64,000 nt of DNA from an uncultured Dehalococcoidia bacterium (GTDB taxonomy: Bacteria > Chloroflexota > Dehalococcoidia > Lucifugimonadales > CATQGZ01), in assembly GCA_958295685.1 (NCBI GenBank), contig OY282365.1, positions 1,758,975 through 1,822,974 on the forward strand, given 5' to 3'. Position numbers and translations under genes: made by a program. Of this stretch, positions 4,201-52,018 are shown piece after piece. The notes under the pieces were generated by a model. That model had not been told where the DNA came from, did not search any database, and saw only the letters and a list, made by a program, of their open reading frames with translations. Each line of letters starts with the position of its first letter. Position 1 is the first letter of the stretch.

Positions 4201-4412
4201 GTTTTCGCCGAAAACTGTCCCAAACTGTTCCATTTTGTTCCATCTCGTAGCTGAGGGGTTCGATTTCGTGGGACAAATGTGGGGCAGTTGTGGGGCAGTT
4301 GTGGAACAGATGTGGGGCAGGTCTGGGACAATTGTGGGACAGGTCTTCAGGGCTGTTGCTGGGTGGGCTGCTTCCATATGAACAATATAGTACAGGGGTT
4401 CGCTGTTGTCAA
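4201..4412 (-). repeat. Dispersed promoter/11-bp-array element, copy A
   Basis: Read on the minus strand: -35 TTGACA (4412-4407), 17-bp spacer, -10 TATATT (4389-4384), ATG at 4377 six bases later, then seven exact 11-bp units of the type TGTCCCACAAC/TGCCCCACAAC, the core CCTCAGCTACGA, one inverted unit TGGGACA, and a small palindrome GTTTTCGGCGAAAAC at 4215-4201. From the ATG a leaderless frame of about 100 codons is open, but it is mostly repeat-encoded and probably not a real protein. The element sits about 130 bases upstream of, and points towards, the D-threonine-aldolase-like gene. The remainder of the 4073-4497 gap holds a 25-base stretch (4141-4165) also present at 44635-44659. Confidence 0.75.
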
Positions 4413-4436
4413 GGGGAGAACCCGCAGTGGGCTGAC

Positions 4437-4501
4437 GCAAGCGCGCCTGCGCCCCCTCCGGCAGGCCGACGGCTCCAGCCTGCGCCGCTGCCGTAGTTCA
4501 A
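4437..4501. repeat. 65-bp dispersed repeat, copy 1
   Basis: The block starting GCAAGCGCGCCTGCGCC and ending CCGTAGTTCAA is repeated at 7546-7610 with only a few differences. Here it forms the 3' end of the 93-residue membrane protein gene: the TGA stop (4500-4498 on the minus strand) lies inside the repeat. It contains a short inverted repeat (GCAGGC ... GCCTGC). Confidence 0.8.
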
Positions 4502-4779
4502 GCGGCGAGCTTGCTTCGAGCGCCAAAGTACACCGCGGCAAGCCCGTTCACAAGGCCGAGTATTACGGCAAGGGGAGCTAGAGCCCAGCCGGACGCTATC
4601 CCGTAACCGCCAGACTCACCTTGGGTGTGCTTCAGGAACTCGATCGGTCCGAGTCCGACGGTGAACGAATTCCATTCGCCAATCGCCGCGACCAAACCGA
4701 TCGAAAGCACTATCGCAAAGCCCATCAGGAGCAGTGAAACCGTCCCTTTTGCCCATGCGATCACAAACCTCTTTATCAT
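4498..4779 (-). CDS. Small membrane protein (ABC cassette, paralogue 2)
   Basis: A 93-residue protein with two hydrophobic segments (about residues 10-35 and 63-86) and a conserved middle GEWNSF...GLGPIEF. It is clearly paralogous to the protein at 7039-7329, which has GEWESF...GFGPVQ at the same place. AAAGGAGA precedes the ATG. It lies 15 bases after the permease gene and is last in the ABC operon, so it may be an accessory or small permease subunit; no known family is recognised. Its stop codon is provided by the 65-bp repeat. Confidence 0.6.
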   Translation of the reverse strand: MIKRFVIAWAKGTVSLLLMGFAIVLSIGLVAAIGEWNSFTVGLGPIEFLKHTQGESGGYGIASGWALAPLAVILGLVNGLAAVYFGARSKLAA

Positions 4780-4794
4780 TTCAGTCTCCTTTCA

Positions 4795-6252
4795 TTAGTG
4801 GGGACCCACTGAAGCGGTTGAACGCGAACCCAACGATTCTATTGTTACGCTTAGAGCGCCTGCCACCACCAGCAACAGGAGCCCACTTGTTACCACGGCC
4901 ATGCCGTCCGATCCTAGGGTAGTCCCCAGCTGTGCAACGGACTGAACAACATAGTAAGCAACCGACGCTCCTGCGATTAGAGCAACGGTTGCGACGAGCT
5001 GTCTGAAGGGTGACTGGCGGCTCCATGGGAGAAGTAGACCAACAATGGTCGTGGAGGACGCATAGGCAATTAGCAAGAGCGCCGACGCAATATATCCACC
5101 ACCTTCTGAAAACCCTACTATGGACGGACCCACTGCCAGGCTTCCTATTGCCGCCGTCAACACGGAAACGGTTATCCACCATGCCAATCCAATAAGCGTT
5201 CCGGAGGTCGGAACTGTCTTTATCAGCCAGGAGCCGGCGAAGCGGTCCTCCGAGAAGGTAAGGACTACCACTGCCGTCAGAAGCAGGGTCAAGGTCGACG
5301 TGAGCAGTACCAACACGGGGACTGTGCCGCTATGGGGCCAACGAGACAGCAGCGCCGTCGCCCCTATGCCGGTCAGAAACGTAAGCGCCAACAGACCCCG
5401 GGATTCGCCCTGTCTCAGTATTGTGAGCATAGCCCATGCCGGGAACGCAGTGAGTGGGCCCGTGCCTATGGGAACGCTGAATGCGACTCTTCTTCGGCGC
5501 ATGGGAGGGTCTGGCCGGAGGCTGTATGCCGTCCATGCGGTGACTGACAGAGCCGCTGATACGGCTGCGGCGGCAGCCGCGACGTAGACGACAGGTCGAA
5601 TCGCTATTGCGAATCCGTCGGAATCAATCGAAGCCGCCGGGAGATACGTAGCGAGCCAATACCATGGATCCTCTACGCGGGACGAGGCAAGGAAGCTCAT
5701 GGCAAGTGTGCCCGCCAGAGCCGACGATGCTATGGCAAACAGCCTCCATGAACGGCAGCCTCTCAGAACTTCGGAGACCGCGGCGCCCTGCAACGCCGCC
5801 GTAAGGTAGAGGAGAGCGAAGACGCCGGCCCAGACGCCAGGTGCCGGAACGGTCACGAGCGCATACACGCGCCACATCATGGCCACGAACGGAACTGCCG
5901 TGACACCAACGACCAACAGCAAGGGAAGGCCCCTCAGTCCAGCTAACATTTCGATTGGACGTACCGTGGTCAGTCGGAACTGCTCATCGAAATACTTTTC
6001 TTTCGGGAGGGTGAGCGAAAAAGTATAGCCGGTCACTGATCCGACAAGCAGAAGAAGGATGCTGAAGCCAGAGAGGCCGCCCGGCACAATCGACAGAAGC
6101 GCGAAGAAGTCCGCCGACCGGACAGCGAGGGCCACAAAGCCCGCAGCTACGGCGACGATAGCGACCAGGATAATTGGGTTGGTTCGCGCCAGGTCGAGTA
6201 CCGCCCTCTTCACCCGGCGATATTCACTCTGAAGAAGAACCGCCCAAAGCAT
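4795..6252 (-). CDS. ABC transporter permease, multi-spanning
   Basis: A 485-residue protein made almost wholly of hydrophobic segments (about twelve), with a short cytoplasmic start (LLQSEYRRVKRAVLDLA). It overlaps the 3' end of the ATPase gene by 29 bases, with GGAGGAG just upstream of the ATG at 6252 (a GTG at 6255 is the alternative), which argues for translational coupling. No conserved permease family motif is recognised; it resembles the loosely conserved ABC-2-type permeases of bacteriocin-immunity or antibiotic exporters. GC content is visibly lower than in the flanking housekeeping genes. Confidence 0.65.
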   Translation of the reverse strand: MLWAVLLQSEYRRVKRAVLDLARTNPIILVAIVAVAAGFVALAVRSADFFALLSIVPGGLSGFSILLLLVGSVTGYTFSLTLPKEKYFDEQFRLTTVRPIEMLAGLRGLPLLLVVGVTAVPFVAMMWRVYALVTVPAPGVWAGVFALLYLTAALQGAAVSEVLRGCRSWRLFAIASSALAGTLAMSFLASSRVEDPWYWLATYLPAASIDSDGFAIAIRPVVYVAAAAAAVSAALSVTAWTAYSLRPDPPMRRRRVAFSVPIGTGPLTAFPAWAMLTILRQGESRGLLALTFLTGIGATALLSRWPHSGTVPVLVLLTSTLTLLLTAVVVLTFSEDRFAGSWLIKTVPTSGTLIGLAWWITVSVLTAAIGSLAVGPSIVGFSEGGGYIASALLLIAYASSTTIVGLLLPWSRQSPFRQLVATVALIAGASVAYYVVQSVAQLGTTLGSDGMAVVTSGLLLLVVAGALSVTIESLGSRSTASVGPH

Positions 6253-7003
6253 CACTTATCTCCTCCGGCGTTGCGGCGAACCCGACCTTTGCGAACACTC
6301 CGATCAGGTCCGGCGCCTCATACTCCGATCTGAGTTGGGACGGGGAACCTTCGGCGAACACTTTTCCATCGACGATAAGGTAGACCACGTCGCAGAGTCT
6401 CTCGGCAAAATCGACGTTCTGGGTTGCTATCAAGAAGCTGCGTCCCCTACCTTGGATCTCGTGGACCATCGCCTCCAGAGAGAGGACGGTCTCGGGGTCC
6501 AGACCGTTGATCGCCTCGTCGATGAAGGTAACCGGTCGCAGCAGAGCCGCCGCCGTGATGATAGCAACCTTCCGTCGGTTGCCATGGTTCAACTCCCCGA
6601 GATACCTGTTTCGGAACCCGTCAAGTCTCCACAGAGAGGCGATGCGCTCCGTTCTCGCAACGTAGTCGGAGCCTGCTCCCTGTAACGCGGCGTAGAATCT
6701 GACGTACTCTGCCACTGTGAGGTGATCGAACCCGGTGGGCACGTCCGGAGCGAATGCCAGCTTCGACTTGGTGCGGACGCTCAATTCGTTGGGGTCACAG
6801 CCGTCAAAGGTGGCTTGACCTGTGTCCGGCTTGAGCAGTCCCGCGGCCAGCCTCAGCGTCGTCGACTTTCCCGAACCGTTTGGTCCGATCAAACCGACTA
6901 CGCGCCCATAGGGTACTCTCAAGGAGAGGCTGCGTACGGCATGGATCGATCCGTACGAAAACGTTACTTCCTCCAACGTTAGGACGTCGTTCACCGTTGT
7001 CAC
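6224..7003 (-). CDS. ABC transporter ATP-binding protein with atypical signature and H-loop
   Basis: A 259-residue ABC ATPase. Walker A is GLIGPNGSGKST (about residues 37-48), Walker B with catalytic Glu is VTFIDEAINGLDPE. The ABC signature, normally LSGGQ, reads LNHGN, and the switch His of the H-loop is replaced by Gln (LIATQNVDF). It would power the adjacent permease from the inner face of the membrane. The start is GTG at 7003 with GGAGGGG upstream. The fold assignment is sure; the substrate is unknown and hydrolysis may be asymmetric or weak. Confidence 0.85.
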   Translation of the reverse strand: MTTVNDVLTLEEVTFSYGSIHAVRSLSLRVPYGRVVGLIGPNGSGKSTTLRLAAGLLKPDTGQATFDGCDPNELSVRTKSKLAFAPDVPTGFDHLTVAEYVRFYAALQGAGSDYVARTERIASLWRLDGFRNRYLGELNHGNRRKVAIITAAALLRPVTFIDEAINGLDPETVLSLEAMVHEIQGRGRSFLIATQNVDFAERLCDVVYLIVDGKVFAEGSPSQLRSEYEAPDLIGVFAKVGFAATPEEISDALGGSSSE

Positions 7004-7038
7004 CGTATCCCCTCCTCGTACCCTGGAACACAGAATGG

Positions 7039-7329
7039 CTAATTGGCGTCCCTTCGCAGCGGGCTGAACCTTGACGTGAAGTAGAGTACGCCAAGCCCAT
7101 TCAGCAGGCCACCCAGAATTGAGAGGATTACGAGACCGGGTCCGGTCTCGAACGAGAAGCCTGATTCATAGGACTTGTGATCCATTAGTTGAACCGGTCC
7201 GAATCCAATGGAAAAGGACTCCCATTCGCCGACTGCAGCGACTATGCCTATCAACAGCGCTACGCTGAGGAGGATCGCCAATGTGGAAACTGCTCCGATC
7301 ATTGAGCCGATAAGAAACTTCCTAAGCAT
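7039..7329 (-). CDS. Small membrane protein (ABC cassette, paralogue 1)
   Basis: A 96-residue protein with two membrane segments and the central GEWESFSIGFGPVQ, paralogous to the protein at 4498-4779. It is the first gene of the ABC cassette, 35 bases upstream of the ATPase. AGGGAAG precedes the ATG at 7329; a GTG at 7332 is the other possible start. Having one copy at each end of the cassette suggests a functional role with the transporter, possibly as immunity or accessory subunits, but no family is recognised. Confidence 0.6.
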   Translation of the reverse strand: MLRKFLIGSMIGAVSTLAILLSVALLIGIVAAVGEWESFSIGFGPVQLMDHKSYESGFSFETGPGLVILSILGGLLNGLGVLYFTSRFSPLRRDAN

Positions 7330-7370
7330 CACGCTTCCCTTTCTCTTGTTGGAACCAAGCCGTCTACCAA

Positions 7371-7474
7371 AGCGTGGCGCACTTGAACGAGGTCATCCCC
7401 GCTCCGATCTACATCGCCAGAACCTCGGCCGACTTGTGGGTCTGTGCCGCACCAGGTCCTCCATAGCGCCCTCT
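7371..7474 (-). pseudogene. Fragment of the 5' end of the D-threonine-aldolase-like gene
   Basis: Bases 7371-7446 match the gene at about 3859-3937 nearly perfectly (GTGGCGCACTTGAACGAGG and onwards, with two substitutions). The match then jumps to GTGCCGCACCAGGTCCTC (about 3990-4007) and to CCATAGCGCCCTC at the original start codon (about 4070-4082). So it is a copy of the gene start with two internal deletions and no coding capacity. The copied 5' flank continues to about 7530. Confidence 0.75.
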
Positions 7475-7490
7475 TTCCATCAGTAGACAA

Positions 7491-7516
7491 CCGCCTCACC
7501 TGGCTTGGTGAGGCGG
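7491..7516. repeat. CCGCCTCACC hairpin, three related copies in window
   Basis: CCGCCTCACC-TGGCTT-GGTGAGGCGG is a perfect 10-bp stem with a 6-base loop. Weaker relatives lie at about 4101-4120 (TCACC...GGTGA) and at 10786-10808, where CTCACC...GGTGAG overlaps the 3' ends of two convergent genes. There is no T-run, so it is not a classical terminator. Confidence 0.6.
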
Positions 7517-7545
7517 CCTCCGTCTATGTGTCCTTTCGCGCCGCC

Positions 7546-7610
7546 GCAAGCGCGCCTGCGCCCACTGCGGCAGGCCGACGCTCCAGCCTGCGCCGCTACC
7601 GTAGTTCAAG
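7546..7610. repeat. 65-bp dispersed repeat, copy 2
   Basis: Matches 4437-4501. Again its last bases (GTAGTTCAA) supply the TGA stop of the gene entering from the right, here the lipoprotein at 7606-8016, although that gene is unrelated to the one ended by copy 1. Confidence 0.8.
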
Positions 7611-8016
7611 AGTCATTGGCATTGCGAAGGGCCTGCTGGTCCTGCGGCGGGATGTACCTGTCTTCAAGACCAAGATCGAAGATGCAATCGAGCTCTGCGC
7701 GGTCCACTTCGGGCGGAAAATTCGGCACTGGCCCAGGGGTCGGCGTCAAGATGTGCGGCCCATAATCGGAAGCGTCCGACATCTCGGGGAATTCATCGAA
7801 CCCCGTTCTGGCGGTGATGCACTCACGCACCCGAAGCGTCTGTTCGCGTGTGGGGAAGTTCTCTATAATGTACTTCAGGCTCGCCTCTTCTTTGGCCTTA
7901 TACTGGGCCTCGAGGGCGGCGTCAGGCTCGGGTGTGGGATACGTTTGCGTAGAGCAACCTGCCAGGATGGACAGGCACACTACGGCGGCGAAAAGTATGG
8001 TTCTTGTTCCTTTCAT
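7606..8016 (-). CDS. Putative lipoprotein
   Basis: A 136-residue protein starting with a lipoprotein signal peptide: MKGTR, a hydrophobic stretch, and the lipobox LAGC with Cys at about residue 21. The mature part is hydrophilic and Pro/Glu rich, with a segment KYIIENFPTREQTLRVRECI and two further cysteines. No known domain is recognised. It lies on the same strand as the ABC cassette, so it could be a surface accessory, but 273 bases with a pseudogene and repeats separate them. Confidence 0.55.
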   Translation of the reverse strand: MKGTRTILFAAVVCLSILAGCSTQTYPTPEPDAALEAQYKAKEEASLKYIIENFPTREQTLRVRECITARTGFDEFPEMSDASDYGPHILTPTPGPVPNFPPEVDRAELDCIFDLGLEDRYIPPQDQQALRNANDS

Positions 8017-8043
8017 GATGACATCCTTTCAAACTCTGCCTAC

Positions 8044-8158
8044 TGGTGTGGCACCCGACGAGACGCCGGATGCCACACCAGGGGGTCGCTCGCTTGCCCC
8101 TGCGCGGCGGGATGGGGAGCGGTCCCAGGCATCTACCCCATCCTCAGCCCGCAGGGGC
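8044..8158. other. Nested inverted repeats in the 8017-8381 intergenic region
   Basis: TGGTGTGGCA (8044-8053) is perfectly inverted at 8071-8080. Next to it GCCCCTGCG (8096-8104) pairs with CGCAGGGGC (8150-8158), and nested inside it GGATGGGG (8110-8117) pairs with CCCCATCC (8136-8143). Neither structure is followed by a T-run. They could be a structured RNA, a remnant palindromic element or protein-binding sites. No family is recognised. Confidence 0.5.
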
Positions 8159-8263
8159 CTCGACAGATGCACCGCATTGCGCGGCGCCCCTGGAAATAGA
8201 TCAGCAGTCTAACCATCTGGCGCCTCCCGTGACTTGTGTTACTGTCCATCATAGACGAGTCAT

Positions 8264-8342
8264 GTGAAATGGCCGTGAAAAGCACCCCCTTTTCCGTGAA
8301 AGAACCTGTGAAAGATCTTCAATGACGGGGCCGTGATACAAT
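8264..8342 (+). promoter_or_regulatory. Phased GTGAAA direct repeats and -10 box upstream of the hybrid sensor gene
   Basis: GTGAAA occurs at 8264, 8275, 8296 and 8308, steps of 11, 21 and 12 bases, i.e. on one face of the helix. OmpR/PhoB-type winged-helix regulators bind direct repeats about 11 bp apart. A -10 box TACAAT lies at 8337-8342 with no good -35 box, as in activator-dependent promoters. The downstream gene encodes exactly such a winged helix, so autoregulation is the natural reading, though unproven. Confidence 0.5.
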
Positions 8343-8381
8343 GCCCGGCATTCGCGTCCCATCGCTTGTGCGGCCTCGGGA

Positions 8382-10784: not shown

Positions 10785-10785
10785 C

Positions 10786-17343: not shown

Positions 17344-17592
17344 TTGATTGGGCCGAACCACTGTGCTAGAGTATGCCCATGACACAGCCGACCATCTCCA
17401 CAAACCAGCCCGCAGGACTCCTGAAGCGCCTGTCACAAAAGTGTCGCAAAGTGTCGCATAAGTGTCGCATGAGTGTCGCATGAGTGTCGCATGAGTGTCG
17501 CATGAGTGTCGCATGAGTGTCGCGTAGTGTCAGCCAAAATCGACCCTCTCAGCTACGAAATGCCCCTAAAATGTGACACTTTCGCCGAAAAA
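17344..17592 (+). repeat. Dispersed promoter/11-bp-array element, copy B
   Basis: Plus strand: -35 TTGATT (17344-17349), 17-bp spacer, -10 TAGAGT (17367-17372), ATG at 17379 after six bases, then about ten units of 10-11 bp (TGTCGCATGAG and variants, about 17431-17535), the core CTCTCAGCTACGAAATG (17546-17562), an inverted unit TGTGACA and the tail TTTCGCCGAAAAA. The leaderless frame from 17379 ends at 17483 after 34 codons, within the array. The next gene in the same direction is the aldo/keto reductase, but 600 bases and a CRISPR-like array lie between. The rest of the 17196-18199 gap (17593-17871) shows nothing recognisable. Confidence 0.75.
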
Positions 17593-18199: not shown

Positions 18200-19105
18200 A
18201 TGGAAAAGAGAACCCTCGGCAGGACAGGGATCGAGGTGACCCGCCTGGGTCTGGGGCTGGCGGAGATCTCGCGCTATGAGCAGCGCGGAGAGGCGGGAGC
18301 GGACGCGGCGCGGGTGCTCAACCTGGCGCTGGACGTCGGGATCAATTTCCTGGACACGGCCGCGTGCTATGCCTCGACGGAAGCGCTGACAGGCTCCGCC
18401 GTGTCTCACCGCAGAGACGAGTTTTTCTTGGCGTCGAAGTGCGGCCACGCCGTAGAGACGGACGCGGAGCCGTGGACGGCCGAGGTGATAGCCGAGAGCG
18501 TGGATCGCAGCCTGAGACGTCTCAGGACCGATCACCTGGACGTCCTCCAGCTGCACTCATGCGAATTGGACGTCCTGGAGCGGGGCGAGGTCATCGAGGC
18601 GGTGCTCAGGGCGCGCGAACAGGGGAAGACGCGCTTTATCGGGTACAGCGGCGACAACGAGGCGGCTCTGTGGGCCGTCGGGAGCGGCGTGTTCGACACG
18701 CTCCAGACGAGTTTCAACCTGGTGGACCAGAGCTCGCGCGGGGAGCTGCTGGGGGCCGCCCGCGCCGCGGGGATGGGGATAATCGTCAAGCGTCCGGTGG
18801 GCAACGGCGCGTGGGGCCGCGCCAGCAGCCCCTACTCGTATGCGGACGAGTATTTCCGACGCGCACAGATCATGAGGGACGTGGGGCCTGTCCCAGGCGC
18901 GCCCGAGGAGCCGATCCTGCTGGCGCTGGGCTTCCTGTTCGCCCACGACGAGGTGGACACGGCCATCGTGGGCACCCACAACCCGGCTCACCTCCAGGCC
19001 AACGTCAGGATGGTCGAGGACGATCTGCCGATCCCGGCCGAGGCCGTCGAAGACCTCCGCCGCCGCTTCGACGCCGTAGGCTCAGCCTGGCCCGGCATGG
19101 GCTAG
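18200..19105 (+). CDS. Aldo/keto reductase
   Basis: A 301-residue (beta/alpha)8 oxidoreductase of the AKR family using NADPH. The start LGRTGIEVTRLGLG is typical, and the tetrad residues are visible: Asp and Tyr in NFLDTAACY, Lys in FLASKCGHA, His in DVLQLHSCE. NADPH-binding residues are expected near VGTHNPAHLQANV. AGGAGA precedes the ATG. It stands alone, 75 bases after the leader end of array 1. The substrate is not known. Confidence 0.85.
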   Translation: MEKRTLGRTGIEVTRLGLGLAEISRYEQRGEAGADAARVLNLALDVGINFLDTAACYASTEALTGSAVSHRRDEFFLASKCGHAVETDAEPWTAEVIAESVDRSLRRLRTDHLDVLQLHSCELDVLERGEVIEAVLRAREQGKTRFIGYSGDNEAALWAVGSGVFDTLQTSFNLVDQSSRGELLGAARAAGMGIIVKRPVGNGAWGRASSPYSYADEYFRRAQIMRDVGPVPGAPEEPILLALGFLFAHDEVDTAIVGTHNPAHLQANVRMVEDDLPIPAEAVEDLRRRFDAVGSAWPGMG

Positions 19106-39021: not shown

Positions 39022-39579
39022 CCCCACCCACCCGCCCATTGGAAACTGGGGGCAAAGCCCCCAGACCCCCTGCCAGAGGGGGGAACCGGCCACGCCGGTA
39101 GAGATCTGGAGCTTCGTCCACCCAGACCCCCTGTCAGAGGGGGGAACCATCCCGAGCCCTGCTCGCCGGGCTCGGGCGGCGCCAGACCCCCTGTCAGAGG
39201 GGGGAACCTCGAGCTCGCGGAGCGACTGGAGGTAATAGTTGCACCGAAACATTACCGTTTCAGAGGGGGGAACCTCGAGCTCGCGGAGCGACTGGAGGGC
39301 TGTGTGCCCCAGACCCACTGCCAGAGGAGGGAACCACTGGCGGCCAAGACCTGGAATTCGCGGGCGGGCCCCAGACCCCCTGCCAGAGGGGGGAACCACT
39401 GGCGGCCAAGACCTGGAATTCGCGGGCGGGCCCAGACCCCCTGCCAGAGGGGGGGAACCACTGGCGGCCGAGACCTGGAATTCGCGGGCGGGCCCAGACC
39501 CCTTGCCAGAGGGGGAACCTCGAGCTCGCGGAGCGACTGGAGGGCTGTGTGCCCCAGACCCCCTGCCAGAGGGGGAACC
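39022..39579 (+). repeat. CRISPR-like 61-bp array 2 (nine units, no cas genes)
   Basis: A leader (CCCACCCACCCGCCC, then the hairpin CTGGGGGCAAAGCCCCCAG) is followed by units of the form CCAGACCCCCTGCCAGAGG at about 39061, 39122, 39182, 39250 (degenerate), 39309, 39371, 39432, 39493 and 39554. Spacers are about 34 bp. One spacer (ACTGGCGGCCAAGACCTGG...) occurs three times in a row and another (TCGAGCTCGCGGAGCGACTGG...) three times, so the array grew by duplicating unit plus spacer. The rest of the 39006-39675 gap has a GGAGGGAG site for the next gene. Confidence 0.85.
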
Positions 39580-39675
39580 TCTCTGGACTCCCCGTTCATT
39601 GGTGGGGGGCGCGGTCAGGCTCCGGGTACGGATGAGACGACGGAACGAGCCCAGCAAGAGCATGGAGGGAGATGA

Positions 39676-40344: not shown

Positions 40345-40363
40345 CAGGGGCCTCCTCATCGGG

Positions 40364-41311
40364 CTAGGCCGGGGAGTCCGATGAGGTGTAGTGGCGGCGT
40401 ATCTCCGAGGCGTACCGCCTGCCGAGGGTTTCCGCGTTCTCCTGGAGCCAGTCCGACAGCCTCGTCTGTCCCGTGGTCGGTCCATCGGAGACCAGCAGGC
40501 CGTTCATCAGTCCCTCGATTTCTTCGCGGGTAAGCACCTCGTCCCTGACGAGCTGTCCCACGATCCTGGAGAGGAATAGAGCGGCGGCGGGCCTGAAGCG
40601 GAGTGTCTTCGTACGGGCGCCGACCCGTTCGGCGACGAGTTGGACGAGCTTCTCGAAGGTGAACGTCTCCGGTCCGACGGCGTCCACCAGGAGGTTGTCC
40701 GAGCGGCTACCGGCGTCGACGGCTATGGCGGCGACGTCGCCTACGAACACCGGGCGCACTCCGTAGAGGCCGGATCCGGGGATTGGGAAGAACGGGAAGC
40801 GTCTGGCCGCCCAGGCGATGTTGTTGAGCAGGACGTCGCCTTCGCCGAACACCAGGGTGGGCCTGACGATGGCCCACTCGATGCCCGATCCCGTGACGGC
40901 GTCCTCGACCATTGCCTTGCCTCGAAAGTATGGAAGGGGGCTGCGGGTGGAGGCGTTGGTGATGCTCACGTGTACGATGCGGCGCACGCCCGCTCTCCCG
41001 GCGGCGTCTATGAGCGTCCTGGAGTTGGCGACGGCCGAGTCGAAGGTGGTGCTTCCGAGGGGGAAGCGTACCCAGTAGGTGTTGTAGAGCGTCTCGGCTC
41101 CCTCCAGGCTACGGGCCAGCGCGTCGGGGTCGTCGAAGGCCAGGGGTTCGACTTCGACTCTGTCTCCGAACGGACTTTCGCTCGCGGAGCGCGACGTCAG
41201 GGTCTTTACCCGCTCGCCCATAGAGAGGAGCCGCCTAGCAACGTGTCTGCCCGTGTACCCGAAGGCGCCGGTGACTACGTTGAGGCGGCGGCTCACGGGG
41301 CTTGCGTTCAT
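40364..41311 (-). CDS. NAD(P)-binding epimerase/NmrA-like protein
   Basis: A 315-residue Rossmann-fold protein of the atypical short-chain dehydrogenase group. The nucleotide motif is VTGAFGYTGRHVARRLL near the N-terminus, and the central IVHVSITNAS and YFRGKAMVEDAV follow NmrA/complex I NDUFA9-like proteins rather than the YxxxK type. The ATG shares one base with the stop of sbcC (TGATG), so it is coupled to it. Its substrate is unknown. Confidence 0.75.
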   Translation of the reverse strand: MNASPVSRRLNVVTGAFGYTGRHVARRLLSMGERVKTLTSRSASESPFGDRVEVEPLAFDDPDALARSLEGAETLYNTYWVRFPLGSTTFDSAVANSRTLIDAAGRAGVRRIVHVSITNASTRSPLPYFRGKAMVEDAVTGSGIEWAIVRPTLVFGEGDVLLNNIAWAARRFPFFPIPGSGLYGVRPVFVGDVAAIAVDAGSRSDNLLVDAVGPETFTFEKLVQLVAERVGARTKTLRFRPAAALFLSRIVGQLVRDEVLTREEIEGLMNGLLVSDGPTTGQTRLSDWLQENAETLGRRYASEIRRHYTSSDSPA

Positions 41312-43881
41312 CAGACCACGGCGAAGGAGGAGCCCATCTCGGTCTTGGTCACTTCGATACGGACCGGGAACGCCTCTTTGATCTGCTCTACGTGGGTGAT
41401 GACGATGATCTTTTGGAAGTCGTTCTGGATCGACCTGATAGCCTCTATCAGGCGCTCCTGTCCGGCGCTGTCCTGTGAGCCGAAGCCTTCGTCTATGAAC
41501 AGGATCGGGAGCGGCGCGCCGGCCCTTCTGGCGAGGAGCTTCGACAGGGCGATTCGCAGGGCGAAGTTGATTCGGAAGGCCTCGCCGCCGCTGAAGGTCT
41601 CGTAGCTGCGTGTGCCGACCTCGTCGGCTATCCTGACGTCCAGTTCTTCAGAGGGCTGGCCCCTGTGCATTCTGCCTCTTTGCAGCTGGAGCTTCAGGGT
41701 CATCCTGTTCTCCGTCAGCCGCTTGAGAATCTCGTTGGAGTCGGTCTCGAGTTGAGGGATAGCCGTCTCGATGATCATGGCCTGGACGCCGTTCTTTCCG
41801 AAGGCCCTTGCGAGTTCATCATAGATGGATTTCTCGCGTTCGAGTCTTCGCCGCTCGCGTTCGTATGCCTTCAATTCCCGCTCCAACTCCACGGCCCGGC
41901 TGATCTGCTGCTCGAGGACGGCCTGGTTTTTCAGGGCGCTGCTTCTGTCGGCGTCCAGTTCGGCCGCCTGGGCTTCAGCGTCATCGAGTCCGGCCTCGCG
42001 CGCCGGGAGGTCGGCCAGTTCCTGCTGGAGGGCCTCTCCGCTGCGCTCGGCATCGGCGATTTCCTGATTCAGCCGCCGGAGCATTTCCTGTGTCGAGGCG
42101 AGGGCCTCGCGCTCTTCGGGGAGTCGGCTGAGCGCCTCCAGCATCTTTCGGCGCAGTTCGTCGTATGGTTCAAGAGCGCGGGCGCTTTCGCGCACCCTCG
42201 TGTGGCGTTCGGGGTCGTACCCCAATGCGGAGAGGTCGGCGTTGATAGTTTCGAGCAGCTTCCGTTCCTCGTGGGCAAAGTCTCCTGCGGCGATGGCACG
42301 CTCTCTTCGTTCGAGCTCTTCGGTCGTGCGGTCGATCTCGGCACTCGCCTTCAGGGCGGCTGCGCGGTCGTTTTCCAGGGCAGCCTTCCCGCGCTGGATG
42401 CGCCGGTCGGTCTCAACGAGTTCGGCCTCACCTCTCTTCAGCGTCGACTCCAGGTTCTGGTGTCTATGCCGGAGGGCTCTGTCTTCGTTCCGGTTCTCGT
42501 CGTAGCGGGTCCTGCCTTCCCGTCCCAGGGCCTCGTACTCCTTTCTGAGGTGTTCCTTGCCATCGGGGCCGAGGGTCTGGCTACACAGCGGGCAGAGTGA
42601 GTCGCCGCGTTCGAGCATGTCGAACTTCCTGCGGGTGTCCTCCATTTGGGAGCGTATTCTGTCTTTCTCGGCGTCGAGGTCTCTCATGCGGTCCGCGGTC
42701 ATCCGGCTTTCCCCGCGGCAGCGTTCGAGGGCCTCCCTGCGCTCCGCGGCGGCCGCTTCGTCGAGGGCCAGCCGCGCGGTCCGCGAGTCTATTTCTCCGA
42801 GGCTGTCGGCCCTGGGCCGCAGTTCCTTTTCGACGAGCGTTCTCAGCTGCGCGGCCTCGCTGGAGAGGCGCTCGCGCCTCACGGCGATTTCCTTCTCGAT
42901 TCTGAACCTCTCCGCGTCGAGTTCCGTCCTGCGGTGGAGGGCCTTATCGAGGAGGTCCCTGTCGTCCCGGAGGCGCTGCAGTTCGGCGAAGTTCCGGCGG
43001 ATATCGGTCTCCCTGGCTGCCGTCGATTCGTAGTCACCGATCCGCGAGGCGAACCCCTGAAGCTGAGCCTGGAGCCGTCCGACATCGCTGCGTTTCGATG
43101 AGAGGGCCGAGTGTACGTCGGCCAGTTCGCTTCGCCGCCGGTGGAGGAACTGGACGGAGGAGCGCAGCCGGTCGACCTCTTTCCGCTGGGCGGCGGCCTC
43201 GCGGGTGACGCGCTCCAGGGCGGCGTTAGTGGCCGCGAGGTTTTTTTCGTGCTCACGTCTGCCCTCTGTCTCCCGCTTTCGCCAGGCGGTTTCCCTGTCG
43301 ACGCCTGCGGCCTCGATCTCGGCGGCTCGGCTGTGTTCCCTCGCCCTGGTCTCCAGCTTCTCGTATCGAGAGAGGTCCAGTACCTCTGCGAGTGTTTCTT
43401 TGCGTTTGGACGGCGTGCTGGTGGTGAAGCGGTCGGCGTCGCCCTGTTTCAGGAAGGCCGTGTTGATGAAGGTTTCGTAATCCATGTGGATGAGGTCGTT
43501 GACGTGGGCCTGGGTTTCCCGTGTCACGCCGCCGGTCAGGGGTGTGGCTCGGTTATCGGTGAGGAGCTGGAGTTCCAGCAGGGCGGCACCCTGACGGACA
43601 CGCCCCGAGCGGGAGTGCCGCCGAATGACCCTGTAGCGCTGGCCGCGGCTCAGGAAGTCCAGTTCCACGTACACATCGGTAAGGCCTTGGTGGATGATTT
43701 CTTCCTGGGTGCGCGCCCTCGCCTTGCCCCAGAGGGCCCAGGCGATCGCGTCGAGCAGCGCCGTCTTGCCGTGGCCGTTGTCTCCGCACAGGCAGGCGAC
43801 GTGGATGCTTTCGAGGTCGAGCGTGGGGGCGTCGTCTCGGTAGCACATGAAGTTCTTGAGGGTGAGACGGAGGGGTATCAT
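41311..43881 (-). CDS. sbcC: SbcC/Rad50-type SMC nuclease-complex ATPase
   Basis: An 856-residue coiled-coil ATPase. N-terminal LKNFMCYRDD and Walker A CGDNGHGKTALLDAI, long coiled coils on either side of a zinc hook with CPLCSQTL (about residue 430), and the C-terminal signature EAFRINFALRIALSKLL, Walker B FIDEGFGSQD. With SbcD it opens hairpins and processes double-strand ends. It is shorter than the roughly 1000-residue enterobacterial protein. No sbcD is next to it. Element C ends six bases before its ATG. Confidence 0.88.
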   Translation of the reverse strand: MIPLRLTLKNFMCYRDDAPTLDLESIHVACLCGDNGHGKTALLDAIAWALWGKARARTQEEIIHQGLTDVYVELDFLSRGQRYRVIRRHSRSGRVRQGAALLELQLLTDNRATPLTGGVTRETQAHVNDLIHMDYETFINTAFLKQGDADRFTTSTPSKRKETLAEVLDLSRYEKLETRAREHSRAAEIEAAGVDRETAWRKRETEGRREHEKNLAATNAALERVTREAAAQRKEVDRLRSSVQFLHRRRSELADVHSALSSKRSDVGRLQAQLQGFASRIGDYESTAARETDIRRNFAELQRLRDDRDLLDKALHRRTELDAERFRIEKEIAVRRERLSSEAAQLRTLVEKELRPRADSLGEIDSRTARLALDEAAAAERREALERCRGESRMTADRMRDLDAEKDRIRSQMEDTRRKFDMLERGDSLCPLCSQTLGPDGKEHLRKEYEALGREGRTRYDENRNEDRALRHRHQNLESTLKRGEAELVETDRRIQRGKAALENDRAAALKASAEIDRTTEELERRERAIAAGDFAHEERKLLETINADLSALGYDPERHTRVRESARALEPYDELRRKMLEALSRLPEEREALASTQEMLRRLNQEIADAERSGEALQQELADLPAREAGLDDAEAQAAELDADRSSALKNQAVLEQQISRAVELERELKAYERERRRLEREKSIYDELARAFGKNGVQAMIIETAIPQLETDSNEILKRLTENRMTLKLQLQRGRMHRGQPSEELDVRIADEVGTRSYETFSGGEAFRINFALRIALSKLLARRAGAPLPILFIDEGFGSQDSAGQERLIEAIRSIQNDFQKIIVITHVEQIKEAFPVRIEVTKTEMGSSFAVV

Positions 43882-43887
43882 GGGTGA

Positions 43888-44100
43888 TTTTTTGCCGAAA
43901 GTGCCAGATTTGTGGGCATTTCGTAGCTGAGAGGGCCGATTTTGCCTGACACTATCCGACAGTAATCTGACACTTATCCGACACTATCTGACACTTTCCG
44001 ACAGGCCCATCCGGGCGCTTGGGGAGTTCTGCGGGCTGGTTGTGGAGAGAGGCCGGCTGTGTCATGGATAGACCGTAGCACAGCGGTTCGGTGTCGTCAA
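43888..44100 (-). repeat. Dispersed promoter/11-bp-array element, copy C, directly upstream of sbcC
   Basis: Minus strand: -35 TTGACG (44100-44095), 17-bp spacer, -10 TACGGT (44077-44072), ATG at 44065 after six bases, about six units of TGTCGGATAAG/TGTCAGATAG, the core CTCTCAGCTACGAAATG, an inverted unit TCTGGCA and tail TTTCGGCAAAAAA. The leaderless frame is 37 codons. Transcription would run straight into sbcC, whose ATG is at 43881. Confidence 0.75.
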
Positions 44101-44354
44101 GGGCGGGATTGTCTGAATCAGGAACCCGTCCCAGATTGGTAGGCAATTTATGAAGAAGGTGCCTCGACTCGGTCACCACCGTCCTGGCACGCGACCTCAC
44201 CGACCGCAGACTCTTCGGCCTGGCTCGTGTCAGCTTGTCATCCAGAGTCAGCAGACGGCGCTCGGCCAACTCATAGGCGCATCCCTGCCGATAGACCTCC
44301 TGGTTGACTGGGGCGACGCGCCGGTCCTTGCGTCCGGGGGCCTCCGGGGGTCGG

Positions 44355-44619
44355 CGGCGGCGGGAAATTTTCGCGAAAGTGTCGCATTGCGGGTATTTCG
44401 CAGCCACTTCGTAGCTGAGAGGGCCGATTTTGGCTGACACTACGCGACACTCATGCGACACTATGCGACACTTTCGCGACACCTGTGCGACACTTATGCG
44501 ACACTTGTGCGACACTATGAGACAGGTCGTCCGGGCGCTTGGGGAGTTCTGCGGGCGGTTTGTGGAGAGAGTCGGCTGTGTCATGGGGATACTCTAGCAC
44601 AGCGGTTCGGGGTTGTCAA
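44355..44619 (-). repeat. Dispersed promoter/11-bp-array element, copy D
   Basis: Minus strand: -35 TTGACA (44619-44614), 17-bp spacer, -10 TAGAGT (44596-44591), ATG at 44584, then about nine units of TGTCGCACAAG type, the core CTCTCAGCTACGAAGTG, the inverted unit TGCGACA and tail CTTTCGCGAAAATTT. It lies 250 bases upstream of copy C in the same direction. A frame open across D and C (210 codons) is best seen as chance. TGTCTGAATCAGG follows on the plus side (44620-44632), as beside C and E. The remaining stretches of the 43882-44782 gap carry no gene. Confidence 0.75.
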
Positions 44620-44696
44620 TGTCTGAATCAGGGGTAACTCTTCAGAGTTGATGAGGTCTTCGGCCAGCGCAGTCCTGATAAGCGGACGGCTGGTTT

Positions 44697-44762
44697 CCCC
44701 ACCCACCCGCCCATTTGAAACTGGGGGCAAAGCCCCCAGACCCCCTGCCTGAGGGGGGAACA
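44697..44762 (+). repeat. Single unit of the CRISPR-like family with leader
   Basis: CCCACCCACCCGCCC, the hairpin CTGGGGGCAAAGCCCCCAG and one unit ACCCCCTGCCTGAGGGGGG. It matches the leader end of arrays 1 and 2 and may be a founder or a collapsed array. Confidence 0.8.
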
Positions 44763-44782
44763 GTGGGGAGGGGATAGAGGCT

Positions 44783-45439: not shown

Positions 45440-45512
45440 GGGTGTCTCCTGGGGGGTGTGGGGGAGCGCCTGCTCCCGAGCCTCAGGGGCGCCAGGCGGT
45501 TCAGTGGCGCTC

Positions 45513-48500: not shown

Positions 48501-48866
48501 GACGCCGTATCTGTCGAGGACGCCGTCGTCGGCCAGGTCGACGGCGAGGTTCAGGCCGGTCTGTCCGCCGAGTGTCGGGAGGATGCCTTCCGGCCTCTCG
48601 GCCTGGATGATTCTGGAGACCACCTCGACGGTGAGGGGTTCGACGTAGACCACGTCGGCGATGCCCTCGTCGGTCATGATGGTTGCGGGGTTGGAGTTCA
48701 CCAGGACGGTTGTCACGCCCTCCTCTCGGAGGGCTTTGCATGCCTGTGCGCCTGCGTAGTCGAACTCGGCGGCTTGGCCTATGACGATGGGGCCGGAGCC
48801 GATTACGAGGACTTTGGAGGGTTTGGACACCGGCGGTTTGCCGTCTACGTTCAGCGCGGCGCGCAC
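45513..48866 (-). CDS. carB: Carbamoyl-phosphate synthase large subunit
   Basis: A 1117-residue CarB with the two homologous halves, each with an ATP-grasp domain ([14 protein letters not shown] in the first, [14 protein letters not shown] in the second), an oligomerisation region, and the C-terminal allosteric domain. It makes carbamoyl phosphate from bicarbonate, ATP and ammonia from CarA, feeding PyrB. The start is GTG at 48866. It follows carA after 41 bases. It is about 8 kb from pyrRBC and on the other strand, so it is not under the pyr attenuator seen here. Confidence 0.93.
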
Positions 48867-48907
48867 GTCATTGTCTCATCATCAGGATATACCGCCATGA
48901 TACACCG

Positions 48908-50002
48908 TCACGAGGCATCGTCGATCATCTCGAGGAACTCGTCGAAGAGGTATTCGTTGTCTCGTGGGCCTGGGGATGCCTCGGAGTGGTACTGGATGCT
49001 CATGACTGGTAGGGAGGTGTGTCGGAGGCCCTCGACGGTGCCGTCGTTCAGGTTGACGTGGCTGACCTCCACGTCGGGCGGGAGGCTGTCGGGGTCGACG
49101 GCGTAGCCGTGGTTCTGGGAGGTGACGTGTATGAGACCCGTCCGCAGGTCTTTGACCGGGTGGTTGCCGCCGCGGTGTCCGAACTTGAGTTTGTAGTTGC
49201 GTCCGCCGACCGCCTGGGCGATGACCTGGTTTCCCAGGCATATGCCCATGATCGGGACCTTGCCGATCAGCCCTGCGGCTGCGCGGACGGCGTAGTCGAG
49301 GAGTTCCGGGTTGCCCGGGCCGGGTGAGAGCAGTACGCCGTCGGGCTTTCGGTCGAGTATCTCCTGGGCGGTGGTGGAGGCGGGGACCGCGGTTACCTGG
49401 CAGCCTCTGTGTCGGAGAATGCGGAGGATATTGTACTTGAGGCCGTAGTCGTCGACGACGATTCTGCGCCCGCCGGGGCTGCCTGGTTCGTGCCAGTCGT
49501 AGGCCTTCCGGGTGGAGACCCTGTTTACGAAATCGACGTCGGCGTACGTCGGCAGGCTCCTGAGCCGCTCGAGGGCCTCCTGTGGTGACCGGCCTGCGGC
49601 GATGACTCCCATCATGACTCCGCGAGTTCTGAGGCGTCGGGTGACGGCTCGGGTGTCGACTCCGCTGATGCCTGGGACGCCCTGGGATTTCAGGAATTCG
49701 TCCAGGGTCATGGAGCTGTCGGGGTGGCTGGGGCGTGTGGAGCGCTCCCGCACCACGAAGCCTGAGACCTGGGCCATGCGTGACTCGCCGTCTCGGTCGT
49801 TGATGCCGTAGTTGCCGATGAGTGGGTAGGTCGGGACGACGATCTGACCTGCGTACGAGGGGTCGGTCAGCATCTCCTGGTATCCGGTCATGGAGGTGTT
49901 GAAGACCACCTCGCCGTGAGCGGCTGGGGCGGCTCCGAAGGGTCTTCCGTGGAAGACCGAGCCGTCTTCGAGAGCGAGGAAGGCGTTGTCGGGGGGTCTC
50001 AC
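48908..50002 (-). CDS. carA: Carbamoyl-phosphate synthase small subunit
   Basis: A 364-residue CarA. The N-terminal half has FNTSMTGYQEMLTDPSYAGQ, and the C-terminal class I glutamine amidotransferase has the nucleophile Cys in IMGICLGNQV and the His/Glu pair in QYHSEASPGP. It supplies ammonia from glutamine to CarB. The start is GTG at 50002, 32 bases after the CoA-transferase A gene. Confidence 0.93.
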   Translation of the reverse strand: MRPPDNAFLALEDGSVFHGRPFGAAPAAHGEVVFNTSMTGYQEMLTDPSYAGQIVVPTYPLIGNYGINDRDGESRMAQVSGFVVRERSTRPSHPDSSMTLDEFLKSQGVPGISGVDTRAVTRRLRTRGVMMGVIAAGRSPQEALERLRSLPTYADVDFVNRVSTRKAYDWHEPGSPGGRRIVVDDYGLKYNILRILRHRGCQVTAVPASTTAQEILDRKPDGVLLSPGPGNPELLDYAVRAAAGLIGKVPIMGICLGNQVIAQAVGGRNYKLKFGHRGGNHPVKDLRTGLIHVTSQNHGYAVDPDSLPPDVEVSHVNLNDGTVEGLRHTSLPVMSIQYHSEASPGPRDNEYLFDEFLEMIDDAS

Positions 50003-50034
50003 GTGGGTATGGCGCGAGGCGGGGCTCTGGCGCC

Positions 50035-50748
50035 CTACGGCGTCTTCACGACGCGGTCGACGAAGATCCCGGGCGTGTGTATGGCTTCGGGGTCCAGGTC
50101 ACCGACATCGACGACTTCGTCTACTTCCAGCACGGTGATATTTGCGGCGGTGGCCATGACGCCGTTGAAGTTTCGGGACGTGCCGCGGTATACGGTGTTT
50201 CCCGATGCGTCGGCTCTGTGGCCTCTGAGCAGGGCGAAGTCGGCTCTGAGGGCGTGTTCGAGCAGGTTTTCACGTCCGTCGAATTCACGGACCTCCTTGC
50301 CCTCGGACATCAGCGTTCCGACGCCCGTGGGGGTGTAGAAGGCGGGTATGCCTGCTCCGCCGGCTCGGATTCTCTCGGCGAGCGTTCCCTGGGGGACGAC
50401 TTCCAGCTCGACCTTGCCTTCCAGGTATGCCTTTTCGAAGGAGGTTGGGCGTGACGGGGATGGGGAGACGGGGAATGAGGCGACCACCCTCTTCACCTGT
50501 TGGTTGTCGACGAGGACTCCGATGTCGATCGGGCGGTCTCCCGGGACGACGCCGAAGCCGATCACGCTGGCGAGTCCGGCGGTGTTGCTGATGATGGTGA
50601 GGTCTCCGGCGCCCTGGTCTCTGAGAGCGGCGATCAGGTTCTGGGGCGTGCCGCCTGGTCCGGCGAAGCCGTCGATCATGAGGGTGGCGCCGTTGGGGAC
50701 ATCGGCCACGGCGGCTTGGAACGAGCTTACAACCTTCTGTATCACCAC
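50035..50748 (-). CDS. CoA-transferase subunit A (3-oxoacid CoA-transferase type)
   Basis: A 237-residue family I CoA-transferase A subunit with GFAGPGGTPQNLIAALRDQG and NTAGL, the CoA-binding pattern, and GVGTLMSEGKEVREFDGRE in the second half. It should pair with a B subunit such as that at 39676-40344, ten kb away and divergent. The start is GTG at 50748 (or the next GTG). It is followed by carA. Confidence 0.88.
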   Translation of the reverse strand: MVIQKVVSSFQAAVADVPNGATLMIDGFAGPGGTPQNLIAALRDQGAGDLTIISNTAGLASVIGFGVVPGDRPIDIGVLVDNQQVKRVVASFPVSPSPSRPTSFEKAYLEGKVELEVVPQGTLAERIRAGGAGIPAFYTPTGVGTLMSEGKEVREFDGRENLLEHALRADFALLRGHRADASGNTVYRGTSRNFNGVMATAANITVLEVDEVVDVGDLDPEAIHTPGIFVDRVVKTP

Positions 50749-50766
50749 TCGCGGGGGACGGGTAGG

Positions 50767-51585
50767 CTATACCCTAACCGCTACGACCCCCAGCCAGTTG
50801 CGGTAGACGTGGTCGACGCCGAGTTCCTGGAAGGTCTCGACGGCGGCCTGGCGGAGGGCGTCGCTGGCGGTGTCGAGGGGGACTCCAGGGATGGCGCCGG
50901 TGATGAAGTCCTCGAAGGAGCTGATGTCCAGCCATCCTTCGAGGGGGACGGGGACGGGATCGATCTTCTGCTTGACCACGATGAGGCCGTGCGCCTCGAC
51001 CAGCTCACGGTACTGGTCGGCCGAGAGGTGGCGCCGGGATTCCACCTTGTCGGCCCTGGATGGCCGGAGGCCGTGCTTGCTTCTGAGGATTCGCACGGTC
51101 TTGAACATCCACTTTCGGTAGAAGAGGGTGGTTTCCGGGGGCTGGCCGCCCTGGTAGAAGGAGGTGTTGAAGACGAACTTGCCGCCCGGCTTCAGCAGTT
51201 TGGATATTTCGGACACGACCGCGTCTTTGTCGGAGACGTAGTGTATGGCGTTGAGGAAGAAGACGGTATCGACAGACTCCTTGACTGTGTCGGAGATCTG
51301 TTCGACCCTGCTCTGGACGAACTGGACAGCGGCGTCTCTGGCGTCCTTGAGGTTCTCCATTGCCTGCTTCAGGGAGATGGCCGACTGGTCGATGCCGATG
51401 ATCACCGAGTCTCTGGCTCCGCGCAGGCGCTCGGCGATCATCGCGGTCACGGCGCCCGTTCCACAGGCGAGGTCGACGATGCGCTGGCCCGGGCCCACTT
51501 CCGCCATGTCCACCAAGCGCTCGTTGAGGGCGCTGTAGAAGGTGTTTGCGGAGAATTTTCCGAACGAGAAGTCTTGCGTTGTCAT
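50767..51585 (-). CDS. Class I SAM-dependent methyltransferase
   Basis: About 272 residues. Motif I is VDLACGTGAVTAMI, with VIIGIDQSAISL (acidic end of strand 2) and VFFLNAIHYV (post II), as in UbiE/Coq5-like small-molecule methyltransferases. GGAGG six bases before the ATG at 51585 decides the start; longer forms lack a site. Element E lies upstream in the same direction. The substrate is not known. Confidence 0.8.
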   Translation of the reverse strand: MTTQDFSFGKFSANTFYSALNERLVDMAEVGPGQRIVDLACGTGAVTAMIAERLRGARDSVIIGIDQSAISLKQAMENLKDARDAAVQFVQSRVEQISDTVKESVDTVFFLNAIHYVSDKDAVVSEISKLLKPGGKFVFNTSFYQGGQPPETTLFYRKWMFKTVRILRSKHGLRPSRADKVESRRHLSADQYRELVEAHGLIVVKQKIDPVPVPLEGWLDISSFEDFITGAIPGVPLDTASDALRQAAVETFQELGVDHVYRNWLGVVAVRV

Positions 51586-51765
51586 TCTATGCCTCCGCTC
51601 TCGGCGCACGACGGCACTCGCTGCGCGCACCGGTCAGCCAGAGAGATTATAGCACCTGTCTCGTTCGGACGCCAAATCGGTAACTCGACGGCTGCCTCAA
51701 CGGGCACGGCTTCCGGCGGCGATCCCCCAGATCCCCCTAGGCAATCGCATCTGAAGGGCCTCTGC

Positions 51766-52018
51766 CTGCGGTTTTTGCCGAAAACTGTCCCAAACTGTTC
51801 CATTTTGTTCCATCTCGTAGCTGAGGGTTCGATTTCGTGGGACAAATGTGGGGCAGTTGTGGGGCAGTTGTGGGGCAGTTCCGGGACAGTTCTGGGACAA
51901 TTGTGGGACAGGCCCCGGGGCAGGGGCGCCCCTGCGATGATTCGGTGAACGTGGTTCGGCATGACCGCAAACGTGTGTTCCATGCGGATATTGTAGTACA
52001 CGAGTTCGCTGGCGTCAA
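51766..52018 (-). repeat. Dispersed promoter/11-bp-array element, copy E
   Basis: Minus strand: -35 TTGACG (52018-52013), 17-bp spacer, -10 TACAAT (51995-51990), ATG at 51983 after six bases, seven 11-bp units of TGTCCCACAAT/TGCCCCACAAC, the core CCCTCAGCTACGAGATGG, the inverted unit TGGGACA and tail GTTTTCGGCAAAAAC. Copy E is closely similar to copy A in its array and beyond. On the plus side it is bordered by TGTCTGAATCAGGATT and further AGGATT units (52028-52070). The remaining gap to 52134 holds a piece of the CCCACCCGCC leader. Confidence 0.75.
51912..51983 (-). pseudogene. Possible RAYT (REP-associated tyrosine transposase) fossil inside copy E
   Basis: The leaderless frame of copy E starts MEHTFAVMPNHVHRIIAG. 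VMPNHVH plus two hydrophobic residues is the HUH signature of Y1/RAYT transposases, in which the two His bind the metal. Only about 20 codons are recognisable. A match this short could be chance, but RAYTs are the usual movers of palindromic repeats. Confidence 0.4.

Follow-up and report, generated by a model that had tools for sequence, protein, structure and literature searches.

What does a promoter joined to a phased array of short repeats do when it stands five times within 64 kb in front of different bacterial genes? The stretch analysed here comes from an uncultured Dehalococcoidia bacterium (contig OY282365.1, positions 1,758,975 to 1,822,974; 64,000 nucleotides, hereafter the window). 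It holds five copies, A to E, of such an element, each with a promoter, an array of heptamers spaced by about 11 bp, a fixed core (CTCAGCTACGA) and further heptamers behind the core. We propose that the copies are probably solo 5′ regions of a gene like that of the terminase small subunit (terS), with a promoter that carries a LexA-type operator. Binding of a TerS-like protein and effects on host genes would belong to this reading.

A dispersed family in two classes

In the window, CTCAGCTACGA occurs five times, solely inside copies A to E. Across the 2.67-Mb genome (G000), CTCAGCTACGA(N)ATG (pattern CTCAGCTACGAN{0,1}ATG) is found at 103 exact places and the reversed control pattern at none, so the family is not a product of chance. 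The five-copy family of the first-pass annotation is real, but its size was set too low, since the genome holds about 100-115 copies. We read 99 distinct CTCAGCTACGA-bearing sequences, made up of 30 loci, 60 stretches and the window; the last six of 66 stretches and three unlisted places stayed outside this set, and one of these, by lexA, was read separately. At least one of the 99 (L084, minus strand) looks like a chance core. Twelve matches to the TerS-like protein introduced below have no listed exact core within 400 bp. As three of these are full genes, up to nine further copies may exist with a changed core. Curated Rfam families gave no gathering match in the window.

The promoter pattern, CGAA[CT]N3TGTNCTAN3T, is present within 1000 nt upstream of the core in 90 of the 99 copies and within 230 nt in 85; the remaining five matches, at 333-664 nt, probably belong to a neighbouring copy. 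Four more copies are one base off the pattern. The 17-bp spacer carries GAACnnnTGTnC, and promoter, spacer and 11-bp arrays hold across the family. Each letter of TTGAC is kept in 88-90 of the 90 promoters, against free variation at several spacer positions nearby; the promoters were selected by a pattern that included CGAAC and TGT. The earlier proposal of selection on a working promoter agrees with these counts, which describe a promoter of the sigma-70 type that is under constraint and has a single spacer length in this genome.

Behind the promoter, the copies fall into two classes, A and B. A feature beyond the first-pass annotation is that the heptamers after the core are inverted relative to the array, with one in copies B, C and D and three, at period 10, in copies A and E. 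Class A has three such heptamers (GGGACAAAATGGAACAGTTTGGGACA, period 10; 122 steps of 10) and array units like TGTTCCA or TGTCCCA, set at steps of 11 (253 cases). Class B has a single after-core heptamer (for example ATCTGACA) and units of the form TGTC(A/G)(C/G/T)A, at steps of 11 (160) and 10 (59). Within a class B copy the units are alike, and they are often the reverse complement of the after-core heptamer; L038 and L077 are among the exceptions. At L281 (G000:C1:1428709) the inner order is swapped, with promoter, GGAACA-type heptamers, core and then a TGTCCC array. At L002, L018 and L064, a class B and a class A copy separated by about 355-395 bp have been duplicated as a pair.

The first-pass annotation also placed a leaderless coding transcript behind the promoter. 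In copies A to E an ATG does begin at the seventh base after the −10 box, as it stated, and among the 85 near-promoter copies 80 have ATG or GTG at this position (ATG 66, GTG 14, ACG 4, CAT 1). The coding transcript itself was not borne out, as start codon, phase and frame length all vary. The phase of the codon to the core is spread 40/23/22 over the same 85 copies, four of them have ACG, the heads differ in length by single bases, and early stops are found; over all 90 promoter matches the open frame from this codon runs from 4 to 210 codons. A conserved open frame from a +1 start was rejected on these frames, and we regard a leaderless gene that contains the repeats as very improbable. The conserved RTG may do no more than mark a transcript that begins with a purine.

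A probable terS-like source gene

Where does such an element come from? Downstream of the core, the copies match the Shine-Dalgarno region and the opening codons of a gene for a small helix-turn-helix (HTH) protein related to phage small terminase. At L274/L292 an element with one base changed in its core runs directly into the gene for a 137-residue HTH protein, whose ATG lies inside the after-core heptamers (AAAATGGAACAG, read as K-MEQ). The protein matches the PHROG terminase small subunit at E 4.2e-11, with further matches at 5.5e-11 and 1.6e-9, and HTH_Tnp_1_2 is matched by all eight relatives, with E values of 0.1 at most and 1.5e-7 at best. The TerS-like protein P0001 matches 85 places in this genome, three of them HTH genes of full length; most of the rest fall in the 3′ part of dispersed copies. 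It also matches four places in G040 (39-53%), three in G001 and two in G004, and none in G006 and G011. Within the order, terS-like relatives are found in 28 of 247 genomes at E 1e-12, with up to eight per genome.

The front ends of these genes repeat the plan of the element. At L292/L323, the terS start follows on the element promoter, a class A array and a core with one base changed. L301/L351 and L297 have class B arrays, those of L351 and L297 seen by eye, and CAGCTACGAAAAGGAG. In G040, a genome of another family, L293 and L296 combine the promoter with CAGCTATGAGGTGGAACAGAATGGAACAAAACGGAACA and L300 combines it with CAGCTAGGAG, with a CAGCTA core and start; three of the four terS-like genes there have the core. 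Because terS-like genes stand behind such leaders here and in another family, we read the copies as solo terS-like 5′ regions. That this front end has been dispersed about a hundredfold in the genome appears well supported on comparison of the sequences. A layout of the pac type, with a promoter and a terS start that carries direct repeats, is found at L292/L323 and, by its start repeats, at L293 and L296 of G040.

Does the gene belong to a phage? In several loci the terS-like gene is followed by a second short open reading frame (ORF2). At L353 the order is terS, ORF2, terminase large subunit (terL; E 6e-33) and portal (PF04860, E 5e-74), and then a DNA methyltransferase and an endonuclease. 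Neither terL nor portal turned up in the neighbourhood, as scanned or called, of L352, L354, L357 and L358, and the other two terS-like genes of this genome, as well as those in L357 and L358, have neighbours that did not look phage-like among the genes scanned or called. In phage records, homologues of the HTH protein at 26-31% identity occur in five of 50,697, all five of them Streptococcus satellite phages. These share HTH protein homologues with our loci, but there the protein is annotated as hypothetical or not at all. Plasmids gave no match for the TerS-like protein.

The period-10 heptamers are a wider feature of terS starts. Of 34 terS-like loci, 25 could be placed by motif; the upstream sequence sufficed in 24, and 17 were non-redundant. 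Heptamer triplets at period 10 in these 17 starts reach a mean best score of 16.29 against 10.92 (sd 0.34) after shuffling, and the means at periods 9, 11 and 12 are 11.59, 12.82 and 11.94. The score is 15 or more in 11 of the 17, and the letters differ between loci (TGGAACA, ATGCAAC, GCGGAAA, AATGAGC). An upstream array of inverse heptamers accompanies the triplet at L323, with five hits where 1.1 are expected and steps of 11 and 22 nt. L346, in G064 of another family, has seven inverse heptamers against 1.02 expected, one of them 448 nt apart, in the unrelated letters GCTCATT/AATGAGC. The same plan in unrelated letters in two families is the best evidence that one reader recognises both the array and the start-region heptamers. 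At L358 (G064:C1:466000-484000), a run of nine GCTCA-type units precedes a terS-like gene and ORF2 by a few hundred bp.

The solo copies themselves have a narrow distribution. With strict filters, hits of the 3′ model are found in three of 250 genomes of the order, at least 23 in G000, 14 in G040 and one in G004. In the same-genus genome G001, neither an exact core nor a match to the 3′ model is present, and arrays are absent from the two contigs that correspond by homology to 36-54 kb of the window. When named genomes were scanned with the 3′ pattern of class A, three stretches matched, all in the Dehalococcoidia metagenome-assembled genome CATOSD01, which is taken to be G040, the promoter strings agreeing. 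Viral contigs gave no match to the 3′ pattern; for the short core they gave at least 120 stretches, of which 80 were scored, and the matches extended little beyond the pattern itself. Among 12 loci read in G040, seven have a TTGAC promoter that ends in ...GTGCTA, with spacers of 17 bp (four) or 18 bp (three) as counted by eye, mostly GCACAnnnGTGC; no 11-bp arrays were seen in the 12. The downstream gene is on the same strand in nine of the 11 loci with a called gene, although divergent regions cannot show orientation. The idea that the promoter-to-ATG spacing is kept in other genomes holds in part: in six G040 promoters inspected by eye, the ATG or GTG lies one base further than here in three, lies at another distance in one and is missing in two.

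Origin and function of the solo copies

The operator in the promoter may link the element to DNA damage. Upstream of recA in this genome stands TTGACACGGCGAACTTTTGTCCGTATACT, which has the same layout, a 17-bp spacer with the same CGAACnnnTGTnC and the site GAACTTTTGTCC. lexA has GAACGAATGTCC once per orientation, and the element operators read GAACnnnTGT(A/G/C)C, the operator form of lexA and recA of the same genome. As the spacer operator resembles the recA and lexA sites, SOS control of the element promoter is plausible. Genome-wide, GAACNNNTGTCC is not in excess (20 against 26 in the control); it is promoter context, not the motif alone, that sets the recA, lexA and element sites apart. 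At L275 (G000:C1:545921), a promoter outside the family shares this operator layout (TTGACACGCCGAACGCCTGTCCGTACAAT); the gene that begins 49 nt further on looks like one for a putative type ISP restriction-modification enzyme.

How might such an element work? The plan, from operator promoter through leader heptamers spaced by about one helical turn (11 bp) and a fixed core before the Shine-Dalgarno sequence to the first terS codons, may be read by the TerS-like protein. Most TerS rings are built of 8-11 subunits, whose HTH motifs are set at intervals of about one helical turn, and about 100 bp of pac DNA have been proposed as suited to wrapping on the TerS of SF6 and SPP1 (PMC4737164). Heptamers placed once per helical turn would thus suit a ring of HTH domains, and binding of TerS-like proteins to the arrays, which are 59-94 bp long in copies A to E, is plausible from their phasing. 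A TerS-like HTH ring would bind one heptamer per turn and wrap the array. At its own gene, this binding would control expression, mark the start of packaging, or both, and DNA damage may raise expression via the LexA-type operator. The solo copies would be non-autonomous, spread by some mechanism, and would put an inducible promoter and a TerS-binding array ahead of host genes.

The statement that no described element has this plan stands in so far as none was found in the literature searched; phage pac regions and the BrickBuilt miniature inverted-repeat transposable elements (MITEs) come close. BOX elements of Streptococcus pneumoniae are numerous modular intergenic repeats with a variable middle module; we know of none with a LexA-type promoter and a phased heptamer array, or with a terS start. 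In SPP1/SF6, the pac region contains direct repeats and takes in promoters as well as the beginning of terS. It resembles the element in this promoter-to-terS-start region with direct repeats, and differs in that the 11-bp heptamer arrays with letters that change between genes, the inverted heptamers at the start codon, the LexA-type operator and the roughly 100 solo chromosomal copies without terS are features seen here (PMC4737164). BrickBuilt elements of Porphyromonas gingivalis are likewise intergenic and dispersed, with leader, minisatellite and tail, promoter activity and a variable unit number. In contrast to the present family they have a 23-nt unit, small inverted-repeat ends and 19 copies in ATCC 33277, and the available portion of their description mentions no phage terminase gene or inverted partner units (PMC4596501). 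The TAACTGA repeats of Beggiatoaceae are also direct heptamers, in 169 sets mostly oriented toward start codons and with mixed downstream genes, some presumably essential. They differ in having one fixed heptamer, in 2-6 copies per set near the start codon, and no promoter, core or phage gene is described for them in the sections at hand (PMC4679880).

If this reading is right, phage packaging DNA has been turned into a dispersed promoter-and-array element before host genes, some of them probably essential. Recognition of pac DNA by small terminases has been called poorly defined (PMC4737164). Here, about 100 natural array copies in two classes stand in the same genome as their presumed cognate proteins, so that rules of recognition could be read from covariation, and a second family offers other letters on the same plan.

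A number of observations weigh against descent from a terS-like gene and against its proposed reader. No transposase and no target duplication were found, and no empty site could be aligned: the same-genus genome is about 69-79% identical in longer matches, and the element flanks did not align. The HTH domain of SF6 TerS bound pac DNA without sequence specificity (PMC4737164), whereas the covariation seen here needs specificity. The name TerS rests on profiles, with P0001 below the HTH_Tnp_1_2 cut-off and a PDB search that returned designed alpha-repeat proteins first and TerS structures at E 0.07-0.12. The element promoter stands at one of the three terS-like genes of this genome (L292). The promoter of L301 is different, without CGAACnnnTGT and close to that of copies L001 and L005; L297 has no promoter visible by eye; and L301 and L297, like class B copies, have one after-core heptamer. 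terL and portal adjoin one of the three genes, and a scan of five frames past the portal at L353 gave no match to a capsid family. Further afield, L303 in G040 has the promoter but not the core, six of the 17 terS starts have no clear triplet, L351 scores low (13), and beyond G000 an array was found in L346 only among the 17. As for the operator, GNACN4GTNC lies upstream of lexA in four and of recA in two of six genomes, where shuffling expects 4-8% each, and in G040, where the element spacer is mostly GCACAnnnGTGC, the regions upstream of lexA and recA do not contain it.

The placement of the copies bears on whether they serve the host or merely persist. By the calls of a simple codon-usage script, which misses genes, 56 of the 99 copies lie in divergent regions, 20 are co-oriented and three opposed in tandem regions, and two are in convergent regions; 18 have one flank uncalled and none lies inside a called gene. 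Set against the intergenic sequence of the window (tandem 8712 bp, divergent 3593 bp, convergent 1992 bp), the copies prefer divergent regions and avoid 3′ ends, within the limits of a 64-kb baseline. The raw count of a same-strand downstream gene, 89 of 95, exaggerates the bias: a divergent region is uninformative on orientation, which can be read in tandem regions alone (20 against 3, one-sided binomial about 0.0002 by hand). This placement would suit a host regulon, in which a domesticated TerS-like regulator acts on copies kept as operators of the genes behind them. So would the downstream families, which are mixed and include pheS, threonyl-synthetase-like, nusA, rho, S1-domain, sufBD and pdxS (a Pfam scan at E 1e-5 covered 50 of 83 downstream proteins, 46 with a family), and a copy about 370 bp upstream of lexA. 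Private changes in 19 E-type copies, although small in number, are also rarer in array heptamers and after-core repeats (0.10 per site) than in array spacers (0.45 per site). We nevertheless think a regulon rather unlikely: most copies, being divergent, are uninformative on orientation, the annotated genes have no evident theme, promoters of their own seem, on inspection by eye, to lie between element and start at lexA and at the gene that follows copy E, and G001 manages such genes without the element. Selfish dispersal without function is a possibility we take more seriously, though with doubts; a MITE-like repeat would include a terS front end by accident, and its position bias would reflect purging from other places. 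The copies are short, intergenic, multi-copy and non-coding, as MITEs are, they are lineage-specific, their flanks are repeat-rich and composite units are co-duplicated. Subsets are flanked by inverted repeats TAACTGTTCAGA...TCTGAACAGTTA; in short class A copies (L009, L026, L074, L079 and others), two flanking strings stand like terminal inverted repeats, TAACTGTTCAGA at about −195 to −211 relative to the core and, on its other side, TCTGAACA(GTTA) at about +102. No terminal repeats common to the family were found, however, the scarcity in convergent regions is opposite to what neutral insertion would give, and the lower private variation of the heptamers, on small numbers, speaks against an idle repeat.

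Two further explanations concern what reads the arrays. The units are reverse complements of the start-region heptamers, so the leader could pair with the Shine-Dalgarno and start region in RNA (UGUUCCA with UGGAACA) and block translation of terS, the solo copies being leftovers or decoy RNAs. Mismatches between class B units and anti-units favour G-U over A-C, by 80 to 20 cells, as such pairing would. The fold z-scores are equal on both strands, however (means −1.87 and −1.86, 90 copies), no more than two of the 90 fold more stably on the sense strand, other mismatches break the pairing, and steps of 10 and 11 nt suit DNA; control at the RNA level seems unlikely to us. Equally improbable in our view is that the copies are some hundred working pac-like sites, at which, after DNA damage, TerS-like proteins of two specificities would bind the arrays and direct host DNA from fixed places into phage or gene-transfer-agent particles. 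Were this the case, the genome would hold a gene-transfer system with addressed start points in place of random packaging.

The five window copies and their surroundings

All five copies reported in the window are present, each with a −35 box, an exact 17-bp spacer containing CGAACnnnTGT and a −10 box. Copy B is on the plus strand and the other four are on the minus strand. The arrays were said to hold 6-10 units of about 11 bp; the spacing stands (10-12 bp, most steps being 11), and our recount gives 7, 9, 6, 8 and 8 units for A to E.

The class A copies are A and E. Copy A (4201..4412) has its −35 box TTGACA at 4407-4412, the operator GAACCCCTGTAC at 4390-4401, the −10 box at 4384-4389 and the RTG at 4375-4377; seven TGYYCC units follow at 4269-4341, then the core at 4245-4255 and three TGGRACA heptamers from 4242, 4232 and 4222. 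The next gene downstream is of the Ala_racemase_N / D-ser_dehydrat type (2966..4072, minus strand). Copy E (51766..52018) has the −35 box TTGACG at 52013-52018, the operator GAACTCGTGTAC at 51996-52007, the −10 box at 51990-51995 and the RTG at 51981-51983. Its eight units span 51838-51922, its core 51815-51825, and its three TGGRACA heptamers start from 51812, 51802 and 51792; a methyltransferase gene (50767..51585, minus strand) lies next downstream.

The class B copies are B, C and D. In copy B (17344..17592), the −35 box TTGATT is at 17344-17349, the operator GAACCACTGTGC at 17355-17366, the −10 box at 17367-17372 and the RTG at 17379-17381. Nine units, mostly TGTCGCA, occupy 17431-17524, followed by the core (17548-17558), the inverted heptamer (17571-17578) and, next downstream, an aldo/keto reductase gene (18200..19105, plus strand). 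Copy D (44355..44619) stands immediately upstream of copy C. It has TTGACA at 44614-44619, the operator at 44597-44608, the −10 box at 44591-44596, the RTG at 44582-44584, eight units, mostly TGTCGCA, at 44443-44524, the core at 44409-44419 and the inverted heptamer at 44380-44387. Copy C (43888..44100) has TTGACG at 44095-44100, the operator at 44078-44089, the −10 box at 44072-44077, the RTG at 44063-44065, six units of TGTC(A/G)GA at 43945-44003, the core at 43921-43931 and the inverted heptamer at 43902-43909. The gene next downstream of both encodes an AAA_23 / SMC_N / SbcC_Walker_B ATPase (41311..43881, minus strand), with its called ATG just past the 3′ end of copy C.

Many E-type heads, copy E included, read ...MPNHVHG... 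(19 aligned), which we take to be the HUH motif of RAYT transposases; this genome has no Y1_Tnp match. An origin as a repetitive extragenic palindromic (REP) element mobilised by such a REP-associated tyrosine transposase (RAYT) was rejected, as PF01797 (Y1_Tnp) had no match in G000 (94% complete) and gave a signal in five of 14 control genomes. Directly left of many copies, including many of class B, lies CTGATTCAGACA / TGTCTGAATCAG, part of a CAGGAT-type repeat; in the window it is found at 44110-44121, 44620-44631 and 52030-52041. A tandem repeat of 62/123 bp at window 39261-39581 contains CCCAGACCCCCTGCCAGAGGGG, a string that is also present near several element copies.

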